A stretch of 50,615 nt of DNA. Origin: Verrucomicrobiaceae bacterium (lineage in GTDB: Bacteria > Verrucomicrobiota > Verrucomicrobiia > Verrucomicrobiales > Verrucomicrobiaceae). Shown here piece by piece: positions 13,301 through 50,615 of this stretch; the first letter of the stretch is position 1; every line of letters starts with the position of its first letter. Location of the stretch: contig JAIYDW010000033.1 of NCBI GenBank assembly GCA_027487315.1, positions 1-50,615 of the forward strand. Reading direction: 5' to 3'. Below the pieces are notes generated by a model, which was not told the origin of the DNA, searched no databases, and saw nothing but the letters and a program-made list of their open reading frames with translations. The translations under genes and the position numbers were made by a program.

Positions 13301-15954
13301 CATCGCGAACTTGCCGTCCGGTACACCCCGCCCCGCCACTCTCCCGAATCAGGATTGAAGGCCCACAAATCATTCAAGAAACCCGCCGCCCCACTGCCAG
13401 CCAATCCCTGTCCGCCAAACAAATACATCATCCCATCCACCCCCATCCAAGCACTAGCACCGGATCTTCCCCCCGGACCTTGATCAATCACTTCGACCGT
13501 ATCCGAACCATATCGACCCAAGGCGTTGATACCCGTCGATCCCTTGCAATGCGTCCACTGACCCACGCCCGCATCAAAACGCCAAAGGTCGTTCAACAAC
13601 CCGCTCGTCGCACCCGAAACGCCACGTCCCCTCCCCCCAAATACCCACAGATGCCCCGCCCCATCCTGCCATCCAGCCGCGCCGGATCGTCCACCTGGCA
13701 GGTTCCCTCCGGCAGCAACGCCCGTTGTCCCGTAAACCCCATTCGCATTGACCCCCGTCCCACCACTGATCCAAGCCCATTGCCCAACCCCAGGATCAAA
13801 ACGCCACAAATCATTCAACTCCCCAGTCAACGCCCCATTGCTCCCGCGTCCAAACCCACCGAACATCCACACTCGCCCCAAGTCATCGACCCAAAGCACC
13901 GCCCCCGAACGCCCCCCTGGCACGTTGCCCGCCCCAGCCACTCCCAAGCTTCCATACACACCCGCAGCGTTCAGGCCCTTGCCTCCGGCAACCCAAGCCC
14001 ACTGATTAGCCGAAGCATCAAAACGCCACAAATCATTGAGTAAGCCTTGCGCTCCAATTTCACCCCTTCCCAAACCTCCGAACACATACATCACCGGGCC
14101 TTTGGAGGCACTCGCGCTCAGACTCCTCGCACCTGGGCGATTGCCAACACCACCCACGCCTTGGGTTCCATACACACCATTCAAATCTGTCGCTTGCTCC
14201 CCATTCATCCACGCCCAGCCAGGACTCTGCGCCCTGACCACCACCACGACCAAAACAGGCGTCGAACTCAAGAGCCCGTCGTTCACTGTGAAAGTGAAGC
14301 TATCATCTCCTATGAATAGATGATCAGGATGATACAAAAAACTTCCGTTCGATTGCATCGTCAACGTCCCATTCACAGGCCCCGTACCGACCGCAAACGT
14401 GAGGGCACTATCCTCCGGATCACTTCCCTGCAACACACCACTCAAAAGATCACTCTGTGAAACTTCAAACGACGCAGGCACACCCACCGGCGGCAGCCCA
14501 CCAGGGGCACCAGCGATCGTAATTGAAATCGTCGCCTCATTCGAATCCGCATTGCCATCATTCGCTTTGAAATTAAACGAATCCGCACCCGTTTGCCCGA
14601 CCGTTGCCGTGTAAACAAACGATCCATCCGGTTGCACAACCACTGTGCCTTTAGTCGGATTACTCGTCTTCACAAAGGTCAAAGGCGAATTCTCCAAATC
14701 CGACGCCACCAATTGCCCCGCCTTCCCTACTCCCGCCACTGCTGGTAGAGTGCCCCCAGTCGCCACCGGCGGCGCATTGATCGTGATCGAAATCGTCGCC
14801 TCATTCGAATCCACACTCCCATCATTCGCCTTGAAATTGAACGAATCCGCCCCGGTCTGCCCCGCCGTCGCCGTGTAAACAAACGACCCATCCGTTTGCA
14901 CCACCACACTCCCCTTGGTCGGATTACTTGTCTTCTGGTAGGTCAACGGCGAATTCTCCAAATCGGACGCCTCCAACTGCCCCGACTTCCCTACCCCCGC
15001 CACCGCTGATAGATTGCCACCACTCGCCACCGGCGGCGCATTGATCGTGATCGAAATCGTCGCCTCATTCGAATCCAGGCTCCCATCATTCGCTTTGAAC
15101 TTGAACGAATCTGCCCCCGTCTGCCCAGCCGTCGCCGTGTAAACAAACGATCCATCAGTCTGCACCACCACACTCCCCTTGGTCGGATTACTTGTCTTCT
15201 GGTAGGTCAACGGCGAATTCTCCGCATCCGTCGCCGCCAACTGCCCACTTCTAGCTGCTCCCGCCACTGCCGCTAAAACTCCTCCGCTCGCCACAGGCGC
15301 CTGATTCACCGGAACAGGTCCGGTTCCCATCATCCGGAAAATCGTCGCCGCCGCACTGCCCGGAAAGCTGTAGGTGTGCGTCTGAGGCCCGGAAAACCCC
15401 GCAAACAAAGTCCCCGAAGTCGGCCTCAAAAAGATCGAGTCAGGTCCCGCTGGCAACCCAACTTCAGGATCCGTCGCAAACGTCGCGCTCAATTTCATCA
15501 ACAAATACTCCGTCGCTGCCGTCCTCGACGTCCCCTTGTAAAGCCAAAGAAAGATACTGCTTCCCCCAAAGGCATTCTGCGAAGCCCGCGTATCTTGACT
15601 CCGATCAACCTCAAAGGCCCCCTGGGCCAGGGAACCCAAGTCAAACGCTCCACTGGTTGAATCAAACGGCACAAAAGCTGCATTCAGACCCGTCATATCC
15701 CCCGCCATCACCAAAGCTGTCACCGCCGAATCAGAAATCGTCATTCGCCCAATAAATCCCCCTGAACCAGTCCCTCCCAACAAAGTTCCACTGTTGTCTG
15801 CCACTCCGTGAAACCCATCGGCAGCAGTTGTGCCATTCGAGATTGTCAAAGTGGCACCCGTAGCCGGCAAAACCCACATCACAGCAAACACACTCGCCAG
15901 AAGACAGCGCAAAGCTACACTCATCGCCCGACCAAAACTCTGGATCTGAAACAT
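10315..15954 (-). CDS. Giant secreted protein: cadherin-like, kelch, FN3, Calx-beta, Ig, C-terminal module
   Basis: An 1879-residue exported protein. Signal peptide to about residue 33 (cleavage near ATG-A|TLT; a second Met at residue 11 gives a more usual leader). Residues 34-214 are an unassigned head. About 217-575 are four cadherin/Big-like units; the first three repeat every 88 residues almost unchanged, each with GSFVYTATAGQTGADSF. About 585-1010 hold six kelch units, each with NDLWRFD-type and FGG motifs, which should close as a six-bladed propeller. Then come an FN3-like domain (1018-1115), Calx-beta (1125-1236), two Ig-like domains (1240-1395), a putative-Ig domain (1400-1485, with GLPKGMVASADGRISG), and the shared C-terminal module (about 1486-1879). 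Probably an extracellular adhesin or carbohydrate-binding surface protein. It follows the TIGR02597-like gene by 60 bases and is likely co-transcribed. Confidence 0.85.
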   Translation of the reverse strand: MFQIQSFGRAMSVALRCLLASVFAVMWVLPATGATLTISNGTTAADGFHGVADNSGTLLGGTGSGGFIGRMTISDSAVTALVMAGDMTGLNAAFVPFDSTSGAFDLGSLAQGAFEVDRSQDTRASQNAFGGSSIFLWLYKGTSRTAATEYLLMKLSATFATDPEVGLPAGPDSIFLRPTSGTLFAGFSGPQTHTYSFPGSAAATIFRMMGTGPVPVNQAPVASGGVLAAVAGAARSGQLAATDAENSPLTYQKTSNPTKGSVVVQTDGSFVYTATAGQTGADSFKFKANDGSLDSNEATISITINAPPVASGGNLSAVAGVGKSGQLEASDLENSPLTYQKTSNPTKGSVVVQTDGSFVYTATAGQTGADSFNFKANDGSVDSNEATISITINAPPVATGGTLPAVAGVGKAGQLVASDLENSPLTFVKTSNPTKGTVVVQPDGSFVYTATVGQTGADSFNFKANDGNADSNEATISITIAGAPGGLPPVGVPASFEVSQSDLLSGVLQGSDPEDSALTFAVGTGPVNGTLTMQSNGSFLYHPDHLFIGDDSFTFTVNDGLLSSTPVLVVVVVRAQSPGWAWMNGEQATDLNGVYGTQGVGGVGNRPGARSLSASASKGPVMYVFGGLGRGEIGAQGLLNDLWRFDASANQWAWVAGGKGLNAAGVYGSLGVAGAGNVPGGRSGAVLWVDDLGRVWMFGGFGRGSNGALTGELNDLWRFDPGVGQWAWISGGTGVNANGVYGTTGVAAGGNLPGGRSGAAGWQDGAGHLWVFGGRGRGVSGATSGLLNDLWRFDAGVGQWTHCKGSTGINALGRYGSDTVEVIDQGPGGRSGASAWMGVDGMMYLFGGQGLAGSGAAGFLNDLWAFNPDSGEWRGGVYRTASSRWATSPGLERTNLVGVNGVLGVAAATNFPSARSGAVASLAPDGKLMLFGGAGAGSFNDVWSFDPVSSNWTWLKGHARANQVGVYGQKGVASASNTPGARGGSVGFMEPSGHFWIFGGAAGTRAFSDGWRLRGRILPTVAWDSLVATGETSADVAGKVSVNVGAGETSVSVEYRAVGNSGAWALLSRPALSPVVGVVPVNASLTGLLAGTAYEVKIRVSNSAGSAVTETKRVTTQGTAVGPLLASFVSGSSSVVESRGAARVEVQLSAPAPSGFSIPMTFGGSTAILGSDYSAAGANVVFAAGQTRAWSVVNVANDGIPESDEVVRLNLGTPSLGTVTIDAPSSHDLLVQDDDGPFTTTVASVLAELGGGATLSAGVNALGTKRYQWKKAGKKITGATGASLSFAAVKLTDAGSYSVDVTLASGLVVTGAAELAVVDTAARRVLGRAGLPVSLPISSAGSGLAFAWRKEGNATVLGTTNPLNLATPVAMDGGVYECTVSMAGVGDLDCLVTLNLVTASPIVTQTRLPDGYVGASYSFELGSSNLPEGEAQIFTVLGLPKGMVASADGRISGVPTAPVVDKAITIVAGNPQGTTQRVSLLTIKTLPPALVGTYGGWFGKVDGMPGGGVGGRVDLAITPSGSFSASLISGTDSRTARGPVNVSLDGASLRIVATFVRAGSPSIVADLIVVGAPLVGQLEISGPILVSGTGQPGTVEGVKLATVEPARVGMYTFGLLLDEVHDGVLAVPQGDGFGTCNLLATGRATLVGRAADGSAYTAAAVMGREGDLPVFLSVGSVGTAGGVAGMAEVRQAPLNDGLEGGLAWTRAAASSVSKTRSYRAGFGPVALNVVGGLYQGPASGGIIAGLPNKSGNAKVSFENRALIEGNVADLVFRIENAGGVKQKVTVPLFNAALPVNPNPAKIGFALDARVAGAFNGSFTLPGVTKVLDRKAVYQGMFVRLPSGSFFAAGYYLMAQPPQPGVTVLATPELSGQVSIAPVP
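14516..15308 (-). repeat. Three tandem 264-bp cadherin-like coding repeats
   Basis: Inside the giant gene, three successive units have an exact period of 264 bases (88 codons): the same ATCATTCGC word falls at 14557, 14821 and 15085. DNA identity between units is very high by eye, including silent positions. This points to recent duplication or gene conversion rather than old domain shuffling. Confidence 0.85.
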
Positions 15955-22643: not shown

Positions 22644-25600
22644 ATGATTTTCCTCAAACCACTACGCTGTTTCGTCTCCACACTCGCCACCTTGACGGTG
22701 CTAACATCGTTCTCCCTCGTCCAAGCACAGACTTCCACTTGGCGCACCCTAGCCGATCCCCGTTCCAATAACGCCGTTTGGATGGCTTCAACCACTGTCG
22801 GTTGGACAGTCGGAGCCTCGGGACTCATCAGCCAAACCACCGATGGCGGTGCGACCTGGATCCCCCAACCTTCCGGAGTCACAGTCGACCTCAACGGCAT
22901 CTGGGGCACCTCCGACACCAGTGTCTGGGCTGTCGGCAATGGCGGAACCGTCCTTTTTTGGAACGGAACCGCATGGACAGCTCAAACCACTGGCGTCACG
23001 TCAAATCTTTCGGCTATTGCAGGCTTCAACGCCAGCAACGTCTGGGCCGTCGGCGCTGCAGCTGAAATCATCAAATGGAACGGCACCGCCTGGACCACTC
23101 AAGATGCTCCAACTAACGCCACTGAAAACCTCAATGGCGTCTGGGCAGCCAACGCCAATACCGTCATTGCCGTCGGGGACAACGGGCAAACCCTTCGAAC
23201 CCTCAATAGCGGCACGGCCTGGAACAATTTCGACAGTTTCACATCGGCAACCACTATCGACCTCCAAGCCGTCTGGGGCAGCGCTGGCAATAGCATTTGG
23301 ATCGTCGGCACAGATAATACAGTCCGCTTCTGGAACGGCACCACCTGGGGCGCCCAAACCAGTGGCCTCCCTGCCAACAGGACTCTGTTCAGCATCTCTG
23401 GAGCGAACGCCACCAACGTCTGGTCCGCTGGCACAAACGGCGAAATCATTCGCTTCAATGGCACTACTTGGTCCAATCCAAACAGCGATACCACCCAGAT
23501 CCTCAACGGCATCCATGTCGTCGATACCTCCAACGTATTCGCTGTCGGTGCCAGAAAGTCCTACACCCGCTGGAATGGCACCACCTGGTCCGCCACCCAA
23601 TCCCCGGTCCCCGGCCGCACATTCACCGATGTCTGGGCCTCAGATGACGACAAAGTCTGGTTCAGCAATGAAAACGGCAATATCTTCCGTTGGAACGGCA
23701 CCAACTTCGCCAATACCACCTCAGGGGTAACCACCGCCCTAACCGCTATCTGGGGTTCAGACGATGCCAACATCTGGGCCGTCGGCGCCGCAGGCGTCAT
23801 CCTCAAATGGAACGGCACCGTTTGGTCCTCCCAGACCTCCGGCGTCAACGTCCTTCTCAACGACGTCTGGGGCACCAGCGCCACCAACGTCTGGGCCGTT
23901 GGCAACAACGGTACCATCCTGCGCTGGAATGGCACGGCCTGGACCAGAATGACTTCTGGCACTACCCAGGATCTCAACGCCATCTGGGCCCGTGACTCCG
24001 CCAACGCCTGGGCCGTCGGTGACCGTGGAACCATCCTCAAGGGCAATACCACCAGTTGGTCAGCACAAACCTCCGGCATCACCAGCAACCTCAATTCCGT
24101 CTGGGGTTCTCTCACCAATGTCTGGTCCGCCGGCGCTGCTGGAGTCATCCTCAAACTGACCGGCACCTCCTGGGCCTCCTCCACCTCAGGCACCACCAAT
24201 AACATCGCCAAACTCACCGGCACTACCCTCGGCACCACCCAACTCTGGGCTGGTGCTGGCACTGCCATCCGCTCGAGCGACGGCACCTCGCCCTGGGCAG
24301 TCGATGGCTCAACGAATGTGTCACTCGCCGTTGCGGGTTTTTGGGCTCTCGCCCCAACCTCCGTCTTCCTCACGACCACTGATGGTATGATCTTCACCAA
24401 CGCCCCTTCCTCCATCCCCCAAATCAATGTCCTGCGACCCGCCGTGCCCCAGCCTCTCCCCCTTTCCGACGCCCGCAGCACCCTCGACCTCGGCCCCACC
24501 AACACCGGCACCACCACCACCGTCACCCTGACCATCCGCAACACAGGCACCTCTCCCCTAGCCGACCTAGCCATCACCAGCAAAGATGGCACCCACCTGT
24601 CCGAGTTCACCGTGACCGAACCACTTCTTTCCTCCTTAAACGCGAACCAAACCACCACCTTCGACGTGACCTTTACCCCCACGGCTGACGGCATCCGCAC
24701 CGCCTCCTTCCGCATCGCCAGCAATGATCCCACCGAACCCTCCTTCCTGATTTCCTTAGCTGGCACCGGCCAAACCCTGCCCACCTTCCCTACCCCTCCC
24801 TCGAGCCGCTCCATCAACCCGGGCGCTTCCACCACCTTCTCCGTCGTCGTCGCCGGCACCAAACCCATCACCTACCAATGGCGCAAAAACGGCGTCGACA
24901 TTACCGGCGCCACCGCTTCCTCGTACACCCGATTAAGAGTCACTGAATTCGATCAGGACGTCTACGATGTCGTCGCCACCAACATCGCAGGCTCCGTCGA
25001 CAGCCCCGACGCCACCCTCTCCGTCAACGATCCCATCGTCATCACCGTCCCTCCTATCACTCAATCCGCCATCGCCGGCACCTCCGTCACCTTCTCGGTT
25101 GTCGGCACCGGAACCCCTCCTTTCACTTATCAATGGACCAAAAACCGTGTCTCCATTGCAGGGGCCACGTCGGACACCTTTGTCATCCCCTCCGCTCAGG
25201 TGACCAACGCCGCCGCTTACGCCGTCGTCGTCCGCAACGTCGTTGGCCCAGTCACCAGCACGTCCGCGAACCTCGCCGTCGCCGATCCTGCCATCCGCAT
25301 CCTCGCTCTCCCTACAGGGGCCACCGCCACCATCGCTGCTCCTATCTCCGGCACCTTTACCTCCTTCGTCTGGACACAGGGCAGCAGCGCACTTCCAATC
25401 GGCCCCCTTACGGCCGATCCCCGTTACACGGGCTTTGCCGGTAAAACCCTGAAAATCACCAAACTCATCGAATCGGACTCCTCCTTCCTCCGCCTCGACG
25501 TGGTCGCCCCCGGAACCCCGCCTACCACCCTCACCACCCAAACCCAGCTCATCGTTTACAACGCCCCACCCGCCATCACCCTCCCCGGCGCGCCACCCAA

Positions 25601-46480: not shown

Positions 46481-46913
46481 AAAGAGGCCTAAACGCGAGA
46501 GCACCATTTAACCTAAAAACGGAGATGGAAAGGAGTGAAGATGGCGTCGTGCGTGGCTCCACAAGGCTTTCCGGCTCGCAACGGTTGCATCGATAAGGTG
46601 ATGCCACCCGAGAAGCGGCCATTCATGCCAGCTATTTATGCCAGGCATTTTTCATTCCTTCCCACCCTCCCTCACTCACCCCGCACCAACACAATCTCCT
46701 CAAATCCCTCAAAATCAGCACCTTAAATCGCCCCTCACCTCGCAAAAACTCCCCCATTCTCCAATCAGTCTCGCATCGGAACGACGGCGCAATTACCCCG
46801 ATCCCCCGCCCCCCACCCTATCTCCCCCCCCTTTCTTGCCCTACCCTCCCTCTTTCTTGTTCTACCCCGCTTCCTTCGTGACATCTCAAGCTAAACCGCG
46901 GTAAACTGACCGC
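46481..46913. other. 433-base intergenic region with a G-rich islet
   Basis: From 46481 to about 46635 the plus strand is G-rich and C-poorer, opposite to most of the window. It has an AAGGAG with five-base spacing in front of an ATG at 46541, opening a 61-codon frame; the translation looks neither conserved nor globular. The 15-base word at 46638-46652 is listed separately. From 46660 to 46913 the sequence returns to C-rich and shows nothing I can name except the short cytochrome gene leader at the end. Confidence 0.5.
46638..46652. repeat. 15-bp word ATGCCAGGCATTTTT, copy 1
   Basis: An exact second copy lies at 50173-50187. Both copies have a further ATGCCA 7-8 bases upstream of the palindrome ATGCCAGGCAT. 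The second copy lies just before the RAYT gene. Short palindromes followed by T-runs may be REP-type repeats or terminators. Confidence 0.5.
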
Positions 46914-47345
46914 ATGAATAAAGGCTTCTTCCTCCCCCTTCTCGCCTGGCTCACCATCGGCAGCCTCTCCACCGCCTGCAAACCCGCCTCAACCAGCGCC
47001 ACCCTCCCCAAACTCAGTTTCACCACCGACGTCCGCCCCGTACTCGAAAAACACTGCGTCAACTGCCACCACGACGGCGCCCTCATGGGCGACCTCAAAC
47101 TCCAGTCCCGCGCCACCGCCTTCGCCACCCGCGCCAAAGGCCCCGTCATCCTCCCTGGCGACCCCGAAAACAGCCCCCTCTTCAAAGTCCTTGTCCTCCC
47201 TGGAGCCGACCCCAAAGCCATGCCCCCCGAAGGCCACCAAATCCCCGTCGAACAAATCGCCCTCATCAAACGCTGGATCCTCGAAGGCGCCGACTGGCCC
47301 GAAGGCCCCGAAGGCACCGTCAAACCCTCCCAGTCCCTGCAATAG
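46914..47345 (+). CDS. Cytochrome c lipoprotein (planctomycete-type cytochrome C)
   Basis: A 143-residue lipoprotein. The leader MNKGFFLPLLAWLTIGSLSTAC has a lipobox with Cys22. The mature part has a single heme-binding CVNCHH (Cys48, Cys51, His52) in a FTTDVRPVLEKHCVNCH setting. The likely axial Met is in KAMPPEGH, and the domain ends RWILEGADWP. This matches the cytochrome C domain (PSC1-like) that is fused to large proteins in Planctomycetota and Verrucomicrobiota; here it stands alone. It should sit on the periplasmic side of a membrane and carry electrons or act as a heme sensor. The partner is not visible. It precedes rpoZ by 129 bases. Confidence 0.87.
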   Translation: MNKGFFLPLLAWLTIGSLSTACKPASTSATLPKLSFTTDVRPVLEKHCVNCHHDGALMGDLKLQSRATAFATRAKGPVILPGDPENSPLFKVLVLPGADPKAMPPEGHQIPVEQIALIKRWILEGADWPEGPEGTVKPSQSLQ

Positions 47346-47474
47346 ACGTCTTTAAGGCTGGGCACCCCCACCATTTCCACTTGCGTTCTGGGCTGACACC
47401 CCTATTTTGCGGGTCCCCCTCATGCCGCTCTTGGCGCCGATTGTTCTAGACCCCCTTCCCATTTCTCGCCCCCT

Positions 47475-47690
47475 ATGAAAGCCGAACTCGTGGACCAAGC
47501 CGCCCTCATCATCCCGCACCCACCCATCCTGATCAACCTCGTCTCCAAGCGCGTCAAACAACTCGCCGCAGGACGCCCCGCCCTCGTTGATCGCCGCCCT
47601 GGCATGCGCGATGCGGACATCGCCCTCACCGAAATCATCGAAGGCAAGATCCGCCCCGAATTCCCCGCCAAAGACGAGTCCGAGGATTAA
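47475..47690 (+). CDS. rpoZ: RNA polymerase omega subunit RpoZ
   Basis: A 71-residue protein. The pattern PILINLVSKRVKQLAAGRPAL, then an Arg-Pro-Gly stretch, then DIALTEIIEGKIRP fits the omega subunit, which helps assemble RNA polymerase by holding the beta-prime subunit. It is short but normal for phyla outside Proteobacteria. It is 48 bases before smpB on the same strand. The ATG at 47475 is the first good start, with the conserved helix starting about 15 residues later. Confidence 0.88.
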   Translation: MKAELVDQAALIIPHPPILINLVSKRVKQLAAGRPALVDRRPGMRDADIALTEIIEGKIRPEFPAKDESED

Positions 47691-47738
47691 TCCCTTCCAG
47701 GCGCCTCCTCGCCCTCACTTCCCGACTGCGGACGACTC

Positions 47739-48203
47739 ATGTCTGCCGAAATCGCCACCAATCGAAAAGCCGCTCGGGACTTCCATATCCTCGAACGCTA
47801 CGAAGCCGGTGTCGAATTGCGCGGCACCGAAGTCAAGTCCATCCGCCAGGGCAAAATCAACCTCTCCGACGCCTTCGCCCGCGTCGAGCGCGGCCAGGCT
47901 TGGCTCTACAACTTCGACATCCAGACCTACGACAAAGCCAGCCACACCCAGCACGAACCTCGCCGCACCCGCAAACTCCTCCTCCACAAGCGCGAGATCC
48001 AAAAACTCACCGTCCTCACCCAGCAAAAAGGCCTCACCCTCCCCGCCCTCCGCGCCTACTGGAAAGGCCCCCTCGTTAAAATCGAAATCGGCGTTGGCAA
48101 AGGCAAAACCAAGGGTGACCAGCGCCAGGACCTCAAAGGCAAAGCCATGGACCGCGAAGCCGCCCGCGCCGTCTCCAACTTCAACGAAAAACGCGGCCGC
48201 TAA
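47739..48203 (+). CDS. smpB: SsrA-binding protein SmpB
   Basis: A 154-residue protein that binds tmRNA and brings it to stalled ribosomes. ATNRKAARDFHILERYEAG, VELRGTEVKSIRQGKINLSD, and HEPRRTRKLLLHKREI are the conserved OB-fold elements. The C-terminal tail is KGKTKGDQRQDLKGKAMDRE, which is basic but differs from the usual K-K-x-x-D-K-R-E, partly by an apparent shuffle of the same residues. The tail lies in the ribosomal mRNA channel, so the change could be functional or neutral. Genomic context rpoZ-smpB-rsmD-waaA is a compact run of housekeeping genes on one strand. The tmRNA gene itself is not in the window. Confidence 0.95.
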   Translation: MSAEIATNRKAARDFHILERYEAGVELRGTEVKSIRQGKINLSDAFARVERGQAWLYNFDIQTYDKASHTQHEPRRTRKLLLHKREIQKLTVLTQQKGLTLPALRAYWKGPLVKIEIGVGKGKTKGDQRQDLKGKAMDREAARAVSNFNEKRGR

Positions 48204-48227
48204 GCCCGCCCCACCGCCTCTCCGACC

Positions 48228-48827
48228 ATGCGCATCATCGCCGGAACCGCTGGAGGCATCCCCCTCAAAGTCCCACAGGGCGACACCCGCCCCACCACCG
48301 ATCGCGTCAGGGAAGCCCTCTTCTCCATGCTCAGCGACCGCATCGAAAACGCCCGCGTCCTCGACCTCTTCGCAGGCTCCGGCTCCCTCGGTATCGAAGC
48401 CCTCAGCCGCGGTGCCGCCTCCACACTCTTCATCGAACAAAACCGCGCCGCCACCGACGTCCTCCGTGCCAATCTCCAGAAAGCACGACTCCAAAACGCC
48501 ACCCTCCGCCAGAGCGACGTCTTCAAAACCCTAGCCGACCTCGCCAAAAACGCCGAACCTTCCTTCAACCTCGTCTTCGCCGACCCCCCCTACACCCATC
48601 GCCCCACCGACACAGACTTCGCCCGCACCCTCCTCGACTCACCCCACCTCCCCCATCTTATAACCCCCGATGGCGACCTCATCCTCGAGTGCCTCGCCTC
48701 CAAACACCCTTTCGAAATCCCCTCCCCTTGGACCCTCCACCGCCAGCGTGACTACGGCACCACCCGCATCCTCTGGCTCCGCCTTCAATCCACTGCCCAC
48801 CTTCCCGTTGAGCCTGCTCCTCTATAA
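48228..48827 (+). CDS. rsmD: 16S rRNA (guanine(966)-N(2))-methyltransferase RsmD
   Basis: A 199-residue SAM-dependent methyltransferase acting on G966 of 16S rRNA. It has MRIIAGTAGG at the N-terminus, TRPTTDRVREALFSML, the SAM-binding loop DLFAGSGSLGIEALSRG, and the catalytic-site DPPY in LVFADPPYTH. Its SAM use links it to metK and ahcY in metabolism, not in operon structure. It is 24 bases downstream of smpB. The 3-prime end overlaps the likely waaA start by 20 bases, so the two are probably co-translated. Confidence 0.94.
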   Translation: MRIIAGTAGGIPLKVPQGDTRPTTDRVREALFSMLSDRIENARVLDLFAGSGSLGIEALSRGAASTLFIEQNRAATDVLRANLQKARLQNATLRQSDVFKTLADLAKNAEPSFNLVFADPPYTHRPTDTDFARTLLDSPHLPHLITPDGDLILECLASKHPFEIPSPWTLHRQRDYGTTRILWLRLQSTAHLPVEPAPL

Positions 48828-50142
48828 CCTTCTCTTCCCCCTCGCCCTCCTCGCCATGCTGCCTAGCGCCCTGCGCAAGCTTCGGGAGCGCGGCGGCAAC
48901 TGGTCCGACCTCCGCCAGCGCATCGGCGTCCTCGACGCCCCCCAGCGCACCGCCCTCGCCTCCATCTCCCATTACGACCAACGCTTCTGGTTCCACGCCG
49001 TCAGCGTCGGCGAAGTCGGTGTCGCCCTCAAAATCATCGCCCCCCTACTCAAACGCTCCCAAAACGCCGCTGTCGTCCTGACCACCACCACTCCCACAGG
49101 TCATCAAATCGCCTCCAACTTTGCTGCCAAACAAAACGGCCGCGTCGCCATCCTCTACAGCCCGCTCGATCTCGCCCCCGTCGTCCGCTCCCTCCTCCTC
49201 GAAATCGCCCCCTGCCGCCTTGTACTCGTCGAAGCCGAAGCCTGGCCCAACCTCGTCACCCAAGCCAGCCGCCTCCACATCCCCATCACCCTCGCCAACG
49301 CCCGACTTTCCCCTCGCTCCAAAAAACGCTTCCAACGCTTTAGCTTCCTCACCCGAACCATCTTCTCCCAACTCGACCAAGTCCTCGTCCAGGAACCCGA
49401 AGACGTCACCCTCTGGGCCGAACTCGGAGCCAACCCCCGACACATCCACCTCACCGGCTCCGTCAAATACGACCCCGAAGGCAATCCCGTCTCACCACAA
49501 AAACTCGAACACTTCCGCTCCCTCCTCACCACCATCGGCATCCACCCCGGCAAACAACCCATCATCATCGCCGCCAGCACCCACCCCGGAGAGGAACTCG
49601 CCCTCGCCCAAAGCTTCCTCACCCTGCTCCAAAACGCCCCCACCCCTGCCCCAGCGCTCCTCATCGTCCCCCGCCACTTCGAACGCTCACCCGCCATTGC
49701 CAGAGAACTCACCGCCATCGGCCTCACCCCCATCCTCCGCTCCACCCTCACCCCCGACACCCCACCTCGCCCCTTCTCCCCCCAACACCCCCTCATCATC
49801 GACACCACCGGCGAACTCAACGCCTGGCAAAACCTCAGCGACATCGTTATCATCGGCAAAAGCTTCCTCGCCCACGGCGGCCAAAACCCGGCCGAAGCCG
49901 CCCTCGCCCGCAAACCCGTCATCTTAGGCCCCCACATGGAAAACTTCGGGCCCCTCGTCGCCCTGCTCCTCCAAGCCAAAGGCGCCATCCAGGCACCCAA
50001 CCTCGAAGCCCTCCCCCACCTCCTCCAGTCATTCCTAAACGATCCCCAACAAGCAACCACCCTCGGCACCTCCGCCCACAACGCCCTCTCCCGCCACGCC
50101 GGCGCCGCCCAACGCACCCTCACCCACCTCCTCCCCCAGTAG
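48808..50142 (+). CDS. waaA: 3-deoxy-D-manno-octulosonic acid transferase WaaA (KdtA)
   Basis: A protein of about 444 residues that transfers Kdo to lipid A precursor at the inner membrane. The leading hydrophobic segment (LLLYNLLFPLALLAMLP) is the usual anchor, followed by GGNWSDLRQRIG, WFHAVSVGEVGVA, the catalytic Glu in LVEAEAWPNL, and HGGQNPAEAALARKPVILGPH at the donor site. The open frame reaches an ATG at 48670, deep in rsmD and in another frame; that extension is Ser/Pro-rich nonsense. I chose the TTG at 48808, which begins exactly at the anchor. An ATG at 48856 would remove most of it. The gene shows that the organism makes LPS. Confidence 0.92.
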   Translation: MSLLLYNLLFPLALLAMLPSALRKLRERGGNWSDLRQRIGVLDAPQRTALASISHYDQRFWFHAVSVGEVGVALKIIAPLLKRSQNAAVVLTTTTPTGHQIASNFAAKQNGRVAILYSPLDLAPVVRSLLLEIAPCRLVLVEAEAWPNLVTQASRLHIPITLANARLSPRSKKRFQRFSFLTRTIFSQLDQVLVQEPEDVTLWAELGANPRHIHLTGSVKYDPEGNPVSPQKLEHFRSLLTTIGIHPGKQPIIIAASTHPGEELALAQSFLTLLQNAPTPAPALLIVPRHFERSPAIARELTAIGLTPILRSTLTPDTPPRPFSPQHPLIIDTTGELNAWQNLSDIVIIGKSFLAHGGQNPAEAALARKPVILGPHMENFGPLVALLLQAKGAIQAPNLEALPHLLQSFLNDPQQATTLGTSAHNALSRHAGAAQRTLTHLLPQ

Positions 50143-50154
50143 CCCAGCACGCAC

Positions 50155-50190
50155 TAAACAATGCCATAAACAATGCCAGGCATTTTTTAT
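50155..50190. repeat. Tandem 12-mer and palindrome after waaA, with 15-bp word copy 2
   Basis: TAAACAATGCCA occurs twice in tandem (50155-50166 and 50167-50178) and runs into ATGCCAGGCATTTTTT (50173-50188), then ATTGTTT, which can pair with the AAACAAT of the first unit. It may be the waaA terminator. Its exact 15-base match at 46638-46652, and its position 34 bases before a RAYT gene, also fit a transposase-linked repeat. Confidence 0.5.
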
Positions 50191-50223
50191 TGTTTCCTTT
50201 CTCACCCCCGCTATCCTCCCCCC

Positions 50224-50615
50224 ATGAAAACATCGCCCAGCCCCCTTCCCACCGACCCTTCCTCCCCTGACCCACTCCTCCCTATCAACGCCAAAACCTC
50301 CCTCTTCCCTCCCGCGCGTTCCTGGTCCGGCGGCCGCAAACGCATCCTCGGCCCCGCCTCCCTCCAAGCCAACTTCTACCACGTCATGTCCCGCACCTGC
50401 GGCGGCGACATCTTCTTCGACCCCACCGAAAAAGAAGCCCTCCGCCGCATTCTCCACCGCGTCGCCGACTTCTGCGGCATCCACCTCCTCACCTTCTGCG
50501 TCATGGGCAATCACTTCCACCTCCTCGCCTCCGTCCCCCATCGCCCCACTTGGATCGCTCGCTTCGATGGCCCCGATGGCGAACAACGCCTCCTCTCCCA
50601 CCTCCGCACCCTCTA
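50224..50615 (+). CDS. REP-associated tyrosine transposase (RAYT, Y1 type), N-terminal part
   Basis: The first 130 codons of a gene that runs off the window. A Pro/Ser-rich start of about 40 residues precedes the Y1_Tnp fold: NFYHVMSRTCGGDIFFDPTE (residues 50-69), an EALRRILHRV helix, and FCVMGNHFHLLASVP with the HUH-like metal site His97 and His99. This is the pattern of RAYT proteins, which are single-copy relatives of IS200/IS605 transposases that act on short palindromic repeats. The catalytic Tyr would lie beyond the window end. The ATG at 50224 is the first in the frame near the domain. Flanking terminal repeats of an IS are not visible. Confidence 0.9.
   Translation, partial: MKTSPSPLPTDPSSPDPLLPINAKTSLFPPARSWSGGRKRILGPASLQANFYHVMSRTCGGDIFFDPTEKEALRRILHRVADFCGIHLLTFCVMGNHFHLLASVPHRPTWIARFDGPDGEQRLLSHLRTL

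Follow-up and report, generated by a model that had tools for sequence, protein, structure and literature searches.

A conserved nine-base sequence upstream of RAYT-type transposase genes in Verrucomicrobiaceae as a candidate 5' tag of a probable one-sided mobile unit

The DNA stretch analyzed here (positions 1 to 50,615 of contig JAIYDW010000033.1 from a Verrucomicrobiaceae bacterium, assembly GCA_027487315.1; hereafter the window) ends within a gene for a REP-associated tyrosine transposase (RAYT; REP, repetitive extragenic palindromic sequence), preceded by a short palindromic sequence. We consider it fairly probable that this gene belongs to a mobile RAYT unit that is one-sided and has its recognition tag at the 5' end. 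Such a unit would start with a few A-rich bases, followed by the tag TGCCAGGCA, a short leader and then the gene, and would end at or just after the stop codon. The observations behind this reading are a tag conserved at the 5' ends of the genes, approximate boundaries of the homology among copies, the presence of copies at different places, an occupied/unoccupied pair of insertion sites and recurrent duplications at the tag. The main features in the window were the following:

50224-50615, forward strand: first 130 codons of a RAYT-type Y1/HUH transposase gene (Pfam Y1_Tnp PF01797, E 2.9e-5 on the 130 visible residues)
50173-50187, forward strand: tag ATGCCAGGCATTTTT in front of the RAYT gene, with the conserved core TGCCAGGCA at 50174-50182
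46638-46652, forward strand: second copy of ATGCCAGGCATTTTT, recognized by sequence, a stranded tag with no RAYT gene behind it
50155-50178, forward strand: perfect 12-nt tandem duplication of TAAACAATGCCA (50155-50166 and 50167-50178), ending at the tag centre
46621-46646, forward strand: 13-nt imperfect tandem duplication (ATTCATGCCAGCT / ATTTATGCCAGGC), ending inside the tag

Conservation of the tag upstream of RAYT genes

At each locus, the 110 nt preceding the RAYT start were scanned for the closest match to TGCCAGGCA. The survey covered 49 rows, which represent 48 distinct loci because one was included twice; they come from the genus of the window, the family to which it belongs and two additional families, and their proteins are ~50-95% identical. 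The tag was present at 48 of the 48 distinct loci, with 46 rows showing an exact match and three a single mismatch. The bases upstream of the tag were A-rich, and a TTG was often found 8-10 nt to its right. An earlier reading of the window, made from the sequence alone (hereafter the sequence-only reading), had not located the tetranucleotide typical of classical REPs. The GTAG/GGAG foot was absent at the base of the palindrome in the 49 rows, which showed A-rich flanks instead.

The core of the tag forms a perfect dyad, TGCC-A-GGCA. When the eight outer positions on each side were compared with right arms shuffled among loci, the arms paired no better than the shuffled ones (212 vs. 206.6 ± 7.1, p = 0.24), so that the palindrome is essentially the nine-mer. 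An extended hairpin with compensatory arms was rejected, since the arms do not covary; a few single loci (L095, L041, L042 and L120) do have long perfect palindromes.

More distant relatives from the Desulfobacterales showed GGGACAG(G) 87-98 nt upstream of the gene in 7 out of 11 loci, and at -204 in an eighth locus. The motif, GGGACAGG at -87 to -98, has no palindromic structure, no inverted partner of it was found downstream of the Desulfobacterales loci, and the context of the upstream motif was equivalent in both groups of relatives (GACAGGCAAATTATGCTTGACA vs. TGCCAGGCATTCAGTGCTTGATT). In a metagenome-assembled genome of Desulfosudis (locus L056), two RAYT-like genes were arranged in direct tandem, with the tag of the second (GGGACAG) 42 nt after the first stop codon.

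Abundance of the tag in the window's genome and in relatives

The two sites at which ATGCCAGGCATTTTT had been noticed, 46638-46652 and 50173-50187, both carry exact copies on the forward strand, with no further exact copy in the window. In the genome to which the window belongs (G000; 5.87 Mb in 256 contigs), the count called for by the sequence-only reading yielded four exact copies of the word and none of its reversed control. Since only 0.015-0.022 copies were expected from Markov models of order 1-5, built from a 588-kb sample of this genome, the word is far above chance. Each of the two RAYT 5' ends recovered from G000 has one of the four copies shortly before it. The excess was not clear for the bare 11-mer ATGCCAGGCAT (7 copies vs. 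2.8-4.2 expected under the same models), so only the longer word is clearly non-random. Seven cores were found in the 5.87 Mb, two of them attached to RAYT genes, and the remaining five are equivalent to 0.85 cores per Mb, i.e. the background of genomes without RAYT. A k-mer survey of 588 kb of G000 detected no high-copy palindrome or REP family, and folding of the two window sites was weak (z about -1 to -2.3). No known RNA family was identified at the tag with Rfam, whose single hit lay in another place, and every item retrieved by a literature search for the tag string was an unrelated primer or paper.

The number of RAYT matches at E < 1e-25, compiled by hand over 57 genomes, was also correlated with the density of the core (Spearman 0.79). 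With one core deducted for each RAYT, the correlation was 0.60 over the 57 genomes (p = 9e-7, a value which, like the others for tag and RAYT number, overstates independence, as these genomes are related by descent) and 0.69 within one genus (n = 16). On average, RAYT carriers had 2.4 extra cores per Mb, vs. 0.77 in non-carriers. Many dispersed copies of the tag were found in relatives G029 (41 cores) and G032 (39 cores), and a large number of those from G029 bound repeats of ~110-150 bp in inverted pairs, reminiscent of REPINs. Clusters of TGCCAGGCA bounding repeats of this size were observed at L163:1348-5562 (contig C41 of G029), L164 and L177, with ends ATGCCAGGCATTTTTTAAA and ATGCCAGGCATGAATGGCACTTAATTAAG, and the latter end type was also found in contig C21 of G000. 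Near a G029 tag cluster, an Acido-Lenti-1 RNA (RF01687) was matched on the reverse strand at L165:872-904 (37.2 bits, just over the Rfam cut-off).

The word thus occurs at four sites instead of two, and genomes without RAYT do not contain it at the same frequency. The sequence-only reading had proposed it as a REP substrate of the RAYT, and the tie to the transposase stands, based on the core upstream of every surveyed gene and on a density of non-RAYT tags that rises with RAYT number. The idea of REPs scattered through this genome does not, as only two of the four word copies lie away from RAYT 5' ends, the bare core is at background level and no high-copy palindrome was detected.

Copies, boundaries and insertion sites

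At least three copies of the RAYT gene were recognized in G000, represented by two 5' ends and three 3' ends, all of them broken by assembly gaps. The 5' ends (C44:50224, the start seen in the window, and C8:9372) share 98% amino acid identity over 130 residues and are cut at the same base, as expected for an assembly break within a repeat. The 3' ends lie on contigs C50, C16 and C119, with C50 and C16 being nearly identical up to 2 nt past the TGA stop codon and unrelated beyond it. Homology among copies starts approximately at the tag, with unrelated left flanks beyond, while the 3' flanks of paralogues diverge at the stop codon or within ~30 nt. An exact tag was found upstream of nearly every complete RAYT gene but within 1 kb downstream of none, and neither a right-end tag, nor an inverted repeat, nor a conserved right end was found.

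The sequence-only reading had recommended checking whether copies border insertions in related strains. In related species, occupied and unoccupied versions of one site were seen between the thiolase gene and sdhC. These genes are split by a RAYT gene in G027 and G070, and lie close together without it in five other relatives (G059, G073, G029, G085 and G067). In G070 (L253, G070:C97), an intergenic stretch of ~57-65 nt is present on both sides of the insertion (49/65 identical, 75%), its right copy being 96% identical to the empty site in G029. In the case of C16, a common downstream flank but different RAYT 3' sequences were found in its G003 orthologue C102 (L247 and L246), which makes an exchange between copies likely, so C16 need not be a new insertion.

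ATGCC as the target site left in the flank, with GGCAT as the start of the element, was not supported, as the A-rich upstream bases recur with the tag; it finds no support at the thiolase/sdhC site either, where the sequence before the tag, CGAAATA, does not match that of the empty site, TATCTCC. The GGCAT remainder expected at the right end if a new copy had inserted into an old tag was not seen. A search for the empty site of the C8 copy in G001 and G002 gave no match and was uninformative, and the kdtA-side flank was not found in G001 or G003.

Short duplications at the tag

All four ATGCCAGGCATTTTT copies in G000 (including those on C8 and C26) are preceded by a tandem copy of 12-14 nt that ends at the central A of the tag, and a second ATGCC lies 12-13 nt upstream of each. 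Among 167 non-redundant TGCCAGGCA sites from all the fetched sequence, duplications (at least 10 of 12 bases matching at a period of 10-22) were detected at 19, vs. 2-4 at each of eight control offsets. They were missing from the counterparts of 46638 in G001 and of the C8 site in G003; as the duplicated flank is specific to each locus, their origin is local. They could possibly result from a nick near TGCCA^GGCA and subsequent repair or slippage.

The transposase and its leader

The RAYT frame opens with the ATG at 50224, where the gene start had been placed from the sequence alone, and is interrupted at 50615, where the contig stops, so that 130 of ~384 codons are available. Its full-length homologue L040, from the same genus (383 aa, 95% identical over the shared part), matches Y1_Tnp in two stretches. 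The match of L040 to NF047646 (REP-associated tyrosine transposase; E 8.5e-16) is likewise split in two stretches by an insertion and, with 58.2 bits, does not reach the curated cut-off of 80 bits. The HUH motif, NHFH, is visible in the window fragment and YIDLNP was seen only in full-length relatives, the distance from HUH to Y being 116-132 residues in the close ones.

No significant match was obtained in the PDB by sequence. With the predicted fold, the best-matching PDB chain was 4er8, the Escherichia coli RAYT bound to a REP hairpin (E 1.1e-4), followed by the IS608 and ISDra2 transposases. The AlphaFold model, built from 13 relatives (mean predicted local distance difference test, pLDDT, 79.8; predicted template modelling score, pTM, 0.81), shows four extra helices at 107-165 (~60 residues) between the HUH strand and the next core helix (169-188), as well as a long C-terminal extension (region 249-383). 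The window copy ends before the extra-helix region, and the insertion and the C-terminal domain are known from the relatives and the model. On the basis of NHFH, YIDLNP and the match to 4er8, i.e. a Y1_Tnp fold with HUH and Y---NP motifs, the gene encodes a RAYT-type Y1/HUH transposase.

Between the tag and the gene, promoter scoring indicated one feature:

50190-50217, forward strand: weak candidate promoter, with -35-like TTGTTT (50190-50195), a spacer of 16 nt and -10-like TATCCT (50212-50217)

Its -10 box ends 6 nt before the ATG, which would give a leaderless mRNA. Over 44 leaders the promoter score was weak (mean 7.2, vs. 6.6 in shuffled sequences).

The stranded tag and neighbouring repeats

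The site orthologous to 46638 in G001 (contig C290) reads GCGCCATTC-ATGCCAGGCATTTTTCATTCC. Both sequences are 90% identical for ~190 nt rightward from the tag, with unrelated DNA to the left, after dprA. As the tag is common to G000 and G001, it is older than the divergence of these species, and it is located at the border of a segment that was rearranged. Next to it, a repeat resembling a miniature inverted-repeat transposable element (MITE) was identified:

46506-46618, forward strand: left two thirds of a ~165-bp MITE-like repeat with ends CCTAGAAACGG...CCGTTTTTAGG (90% identity)

This repeat is truncated 2 nt before GCCATTCATGCC and, although adjoining the tag, belongs to a separate family, with 21 full or nearly full copies in G000 and at least 40 in each of G001 and G003. 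It has internal inverted arms of 67 nt, and complete copies are found, e.g., at L187:1501-1675 and G000:C129:8132-8305. An occupied site in G003, compared with the empty site in G000, showed an apparent 5-bp duplication (TCTAA), and several further copies also had 5-bp AT-rich repeats. Elsewhere in the window, tandem coding-like repeats were observed at 14515-15306, 13363-14178 and 22857-24191 (three 264-nt, several 222-nt and several 114-117-nt copies).

Interpretation

These results support the sequence-only reading in part; the tag behaves as the left-end tag of a mobile gene, and not as a classical REP hairpin. In such a one-sided unit, recognition of the tag by the transposase would take place on single-stranded DNA, the YIDLNP tyrosine would nick the tag at or near its centre, and the segment formed by tag and gene would be transferred. 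Failed or partial events might leave solo tags and short duplications, and the sites at 46638 and C26:3383 would be tags that stayed, or moved, without the gene. We put forward only tentatively, as rather doubtful, a more specific version, according to which the unit is one-ended and has no right-end site, the centre of the nine-base tag is nicked, the 12-14-nt duplications are scars of nicking in vivo, and a TnpAY1 subclass regarded as partnerless has this tag as its partner in place of the REP hairpin.

Several points weigh against a mobile unit of this kind. No right-end recognition site that would account for the choice of the right boundary was found, and the exact junction of a recent insertion was not resolved. 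The flanking duplication in G070, seen at one locus, is predicted by no simple IS200/IS605 model, and one of the three 3' ends, that on C16, may result from gene conversion between RAYT copies instead of a new insertion. Paralogues outside the window's genus are mostly ~60-70% identical, meaning that many insertions are old. Finally, a tag conserved beside a promoter could be regulatory.

This last point can be extended to a reading in which the tag serves the RAYT gene as an operator or promoter element, for instance for autoregulation by a dimer bound to the palindrome, with solo copies being remnants of decayed RAYT genes or chance occurrences. The constant position just upstream of the start and the perfect dyad would agree with it, and the TTG to the right of the tag could serve as a -35 box. 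However, in relatives the tags are found at the borders of MITE-like repeats and at micro-duplications distant from any RAYT gene, they mark the left edge of the homology among copies, the sister-group motif GGGACAGG lacks a palindrome and promoter scores barely exceed those of shuffled sequences; we therefore regard this regulatory reading as unlikely. Even less credit can be given to a classical REP/RAYT system, in which the word would be a REP palindrome dispersed in this genome and copied by the RAYT. The type of protein, the palindromic core and the existence of solo copies are in its favour, together with the numerous tags in G029 and G032, many of them bounding ~110-150-bp repeats as inverted pairs, as in REPINs. 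In G000, however, the core remains at background outside RAYT genes and 588 kb contained no high-copy palindrome; in addition, the tag has no GTAG/GGAG foot, its outer arms do not covary and its folding is weak. The slight excess of the bare 11-mer would suit a chance repeat of the two words, an explanation already refuted by conservation across relatives, with the core upstream of RAYT at all 48 loci, and hardly compatible with a 15-mer expected 0.02 times and found four times.

To our knowledge, RAYTs are the only transposases with a link to REP sequences, and their mode of action in vivo is not settled; the longest RAYT subclasses, 2.1 and 2.3, were reported to be without a REP-like partner. 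That a short tag is present at every examined locus, and that Desulfobacterales have a related, non-palindromic motif in the same position, suggests that RAYTs of this type do possess a recognition sequence whose essential feature is not a hairpin. Moreover, the duplications ending at the tag centre predict a cut site, which is testable.

Comparison with known systems

The catalytic fold (HUH and Y1), the multi-copy mobile gene and a left-end recognition sequence are shared with IS200/IS605 elements such as IS608 and ISDra2. In those, subterminal hairpins are found at both ends, whereas no right-end hairpin or site was found here; the protein is more than twice as long and carries NHFH and YIDLNP, and the left flank is A-rich instead of a fixed TTAC/TTGAT-type sequence. 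The RAYT/REPtron systems with REPINs (E. coli TnpAREP, Pseudomonas; PMC3116915, PMC8266576) resemble the present one in the Y1 fold (4er8), in having a palindromic partner and, in some relatives, in inverted tag pairs ~110-150 bp apart, but here the RAYT is multi-copy, the GTAG foot is missing and G000 harbours no dispersed REP population.

TIRYT genes (TIRtrons) were described as flanked on both sides by terminal inverted repeats (TIR) with the consensus GGGGWSAS (De Nocera group 2013, PMC3733652). They also encode long RAYT-like proteins and have a non-REP upstream sequence, and the GGGACAG of Desulfobacterales fits that consensus at an equivalent position; in contrast, the Verrucomicrobial tag is TGCCAGGCA and, both in these loci and in those of Desulfobacterales, the motif occurs on the upstream side only, without an inverted partner downstream.

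Subclass 2.3 of TnpAY1 shares with the relatives and the model described here a Y1/HUH domain with a large helical insertion (~55 aa, beta3-alphaC) and a long C-terminal extension, in addition to a Y-DLNP motif and several copies per genome of moderate identity. The motifs are NHFH, WM and YIDLNP here vs. NHYH, WE and YVDLNP, the length is ~384 aa vs. 325, and the host phylum here is Verrucomicrobiota. No REP-like sequence was found near TnpAY1 genes of subclass 2.3 or 2.1 (Quentin et al. 2018, PMC6006769), in contrast to the upstream tag present here at every locus examined. With TGCCAGGCA, a long RAYT similar to subclass 2.3, a group for which no REP had been found, gains a likely candidate tag.

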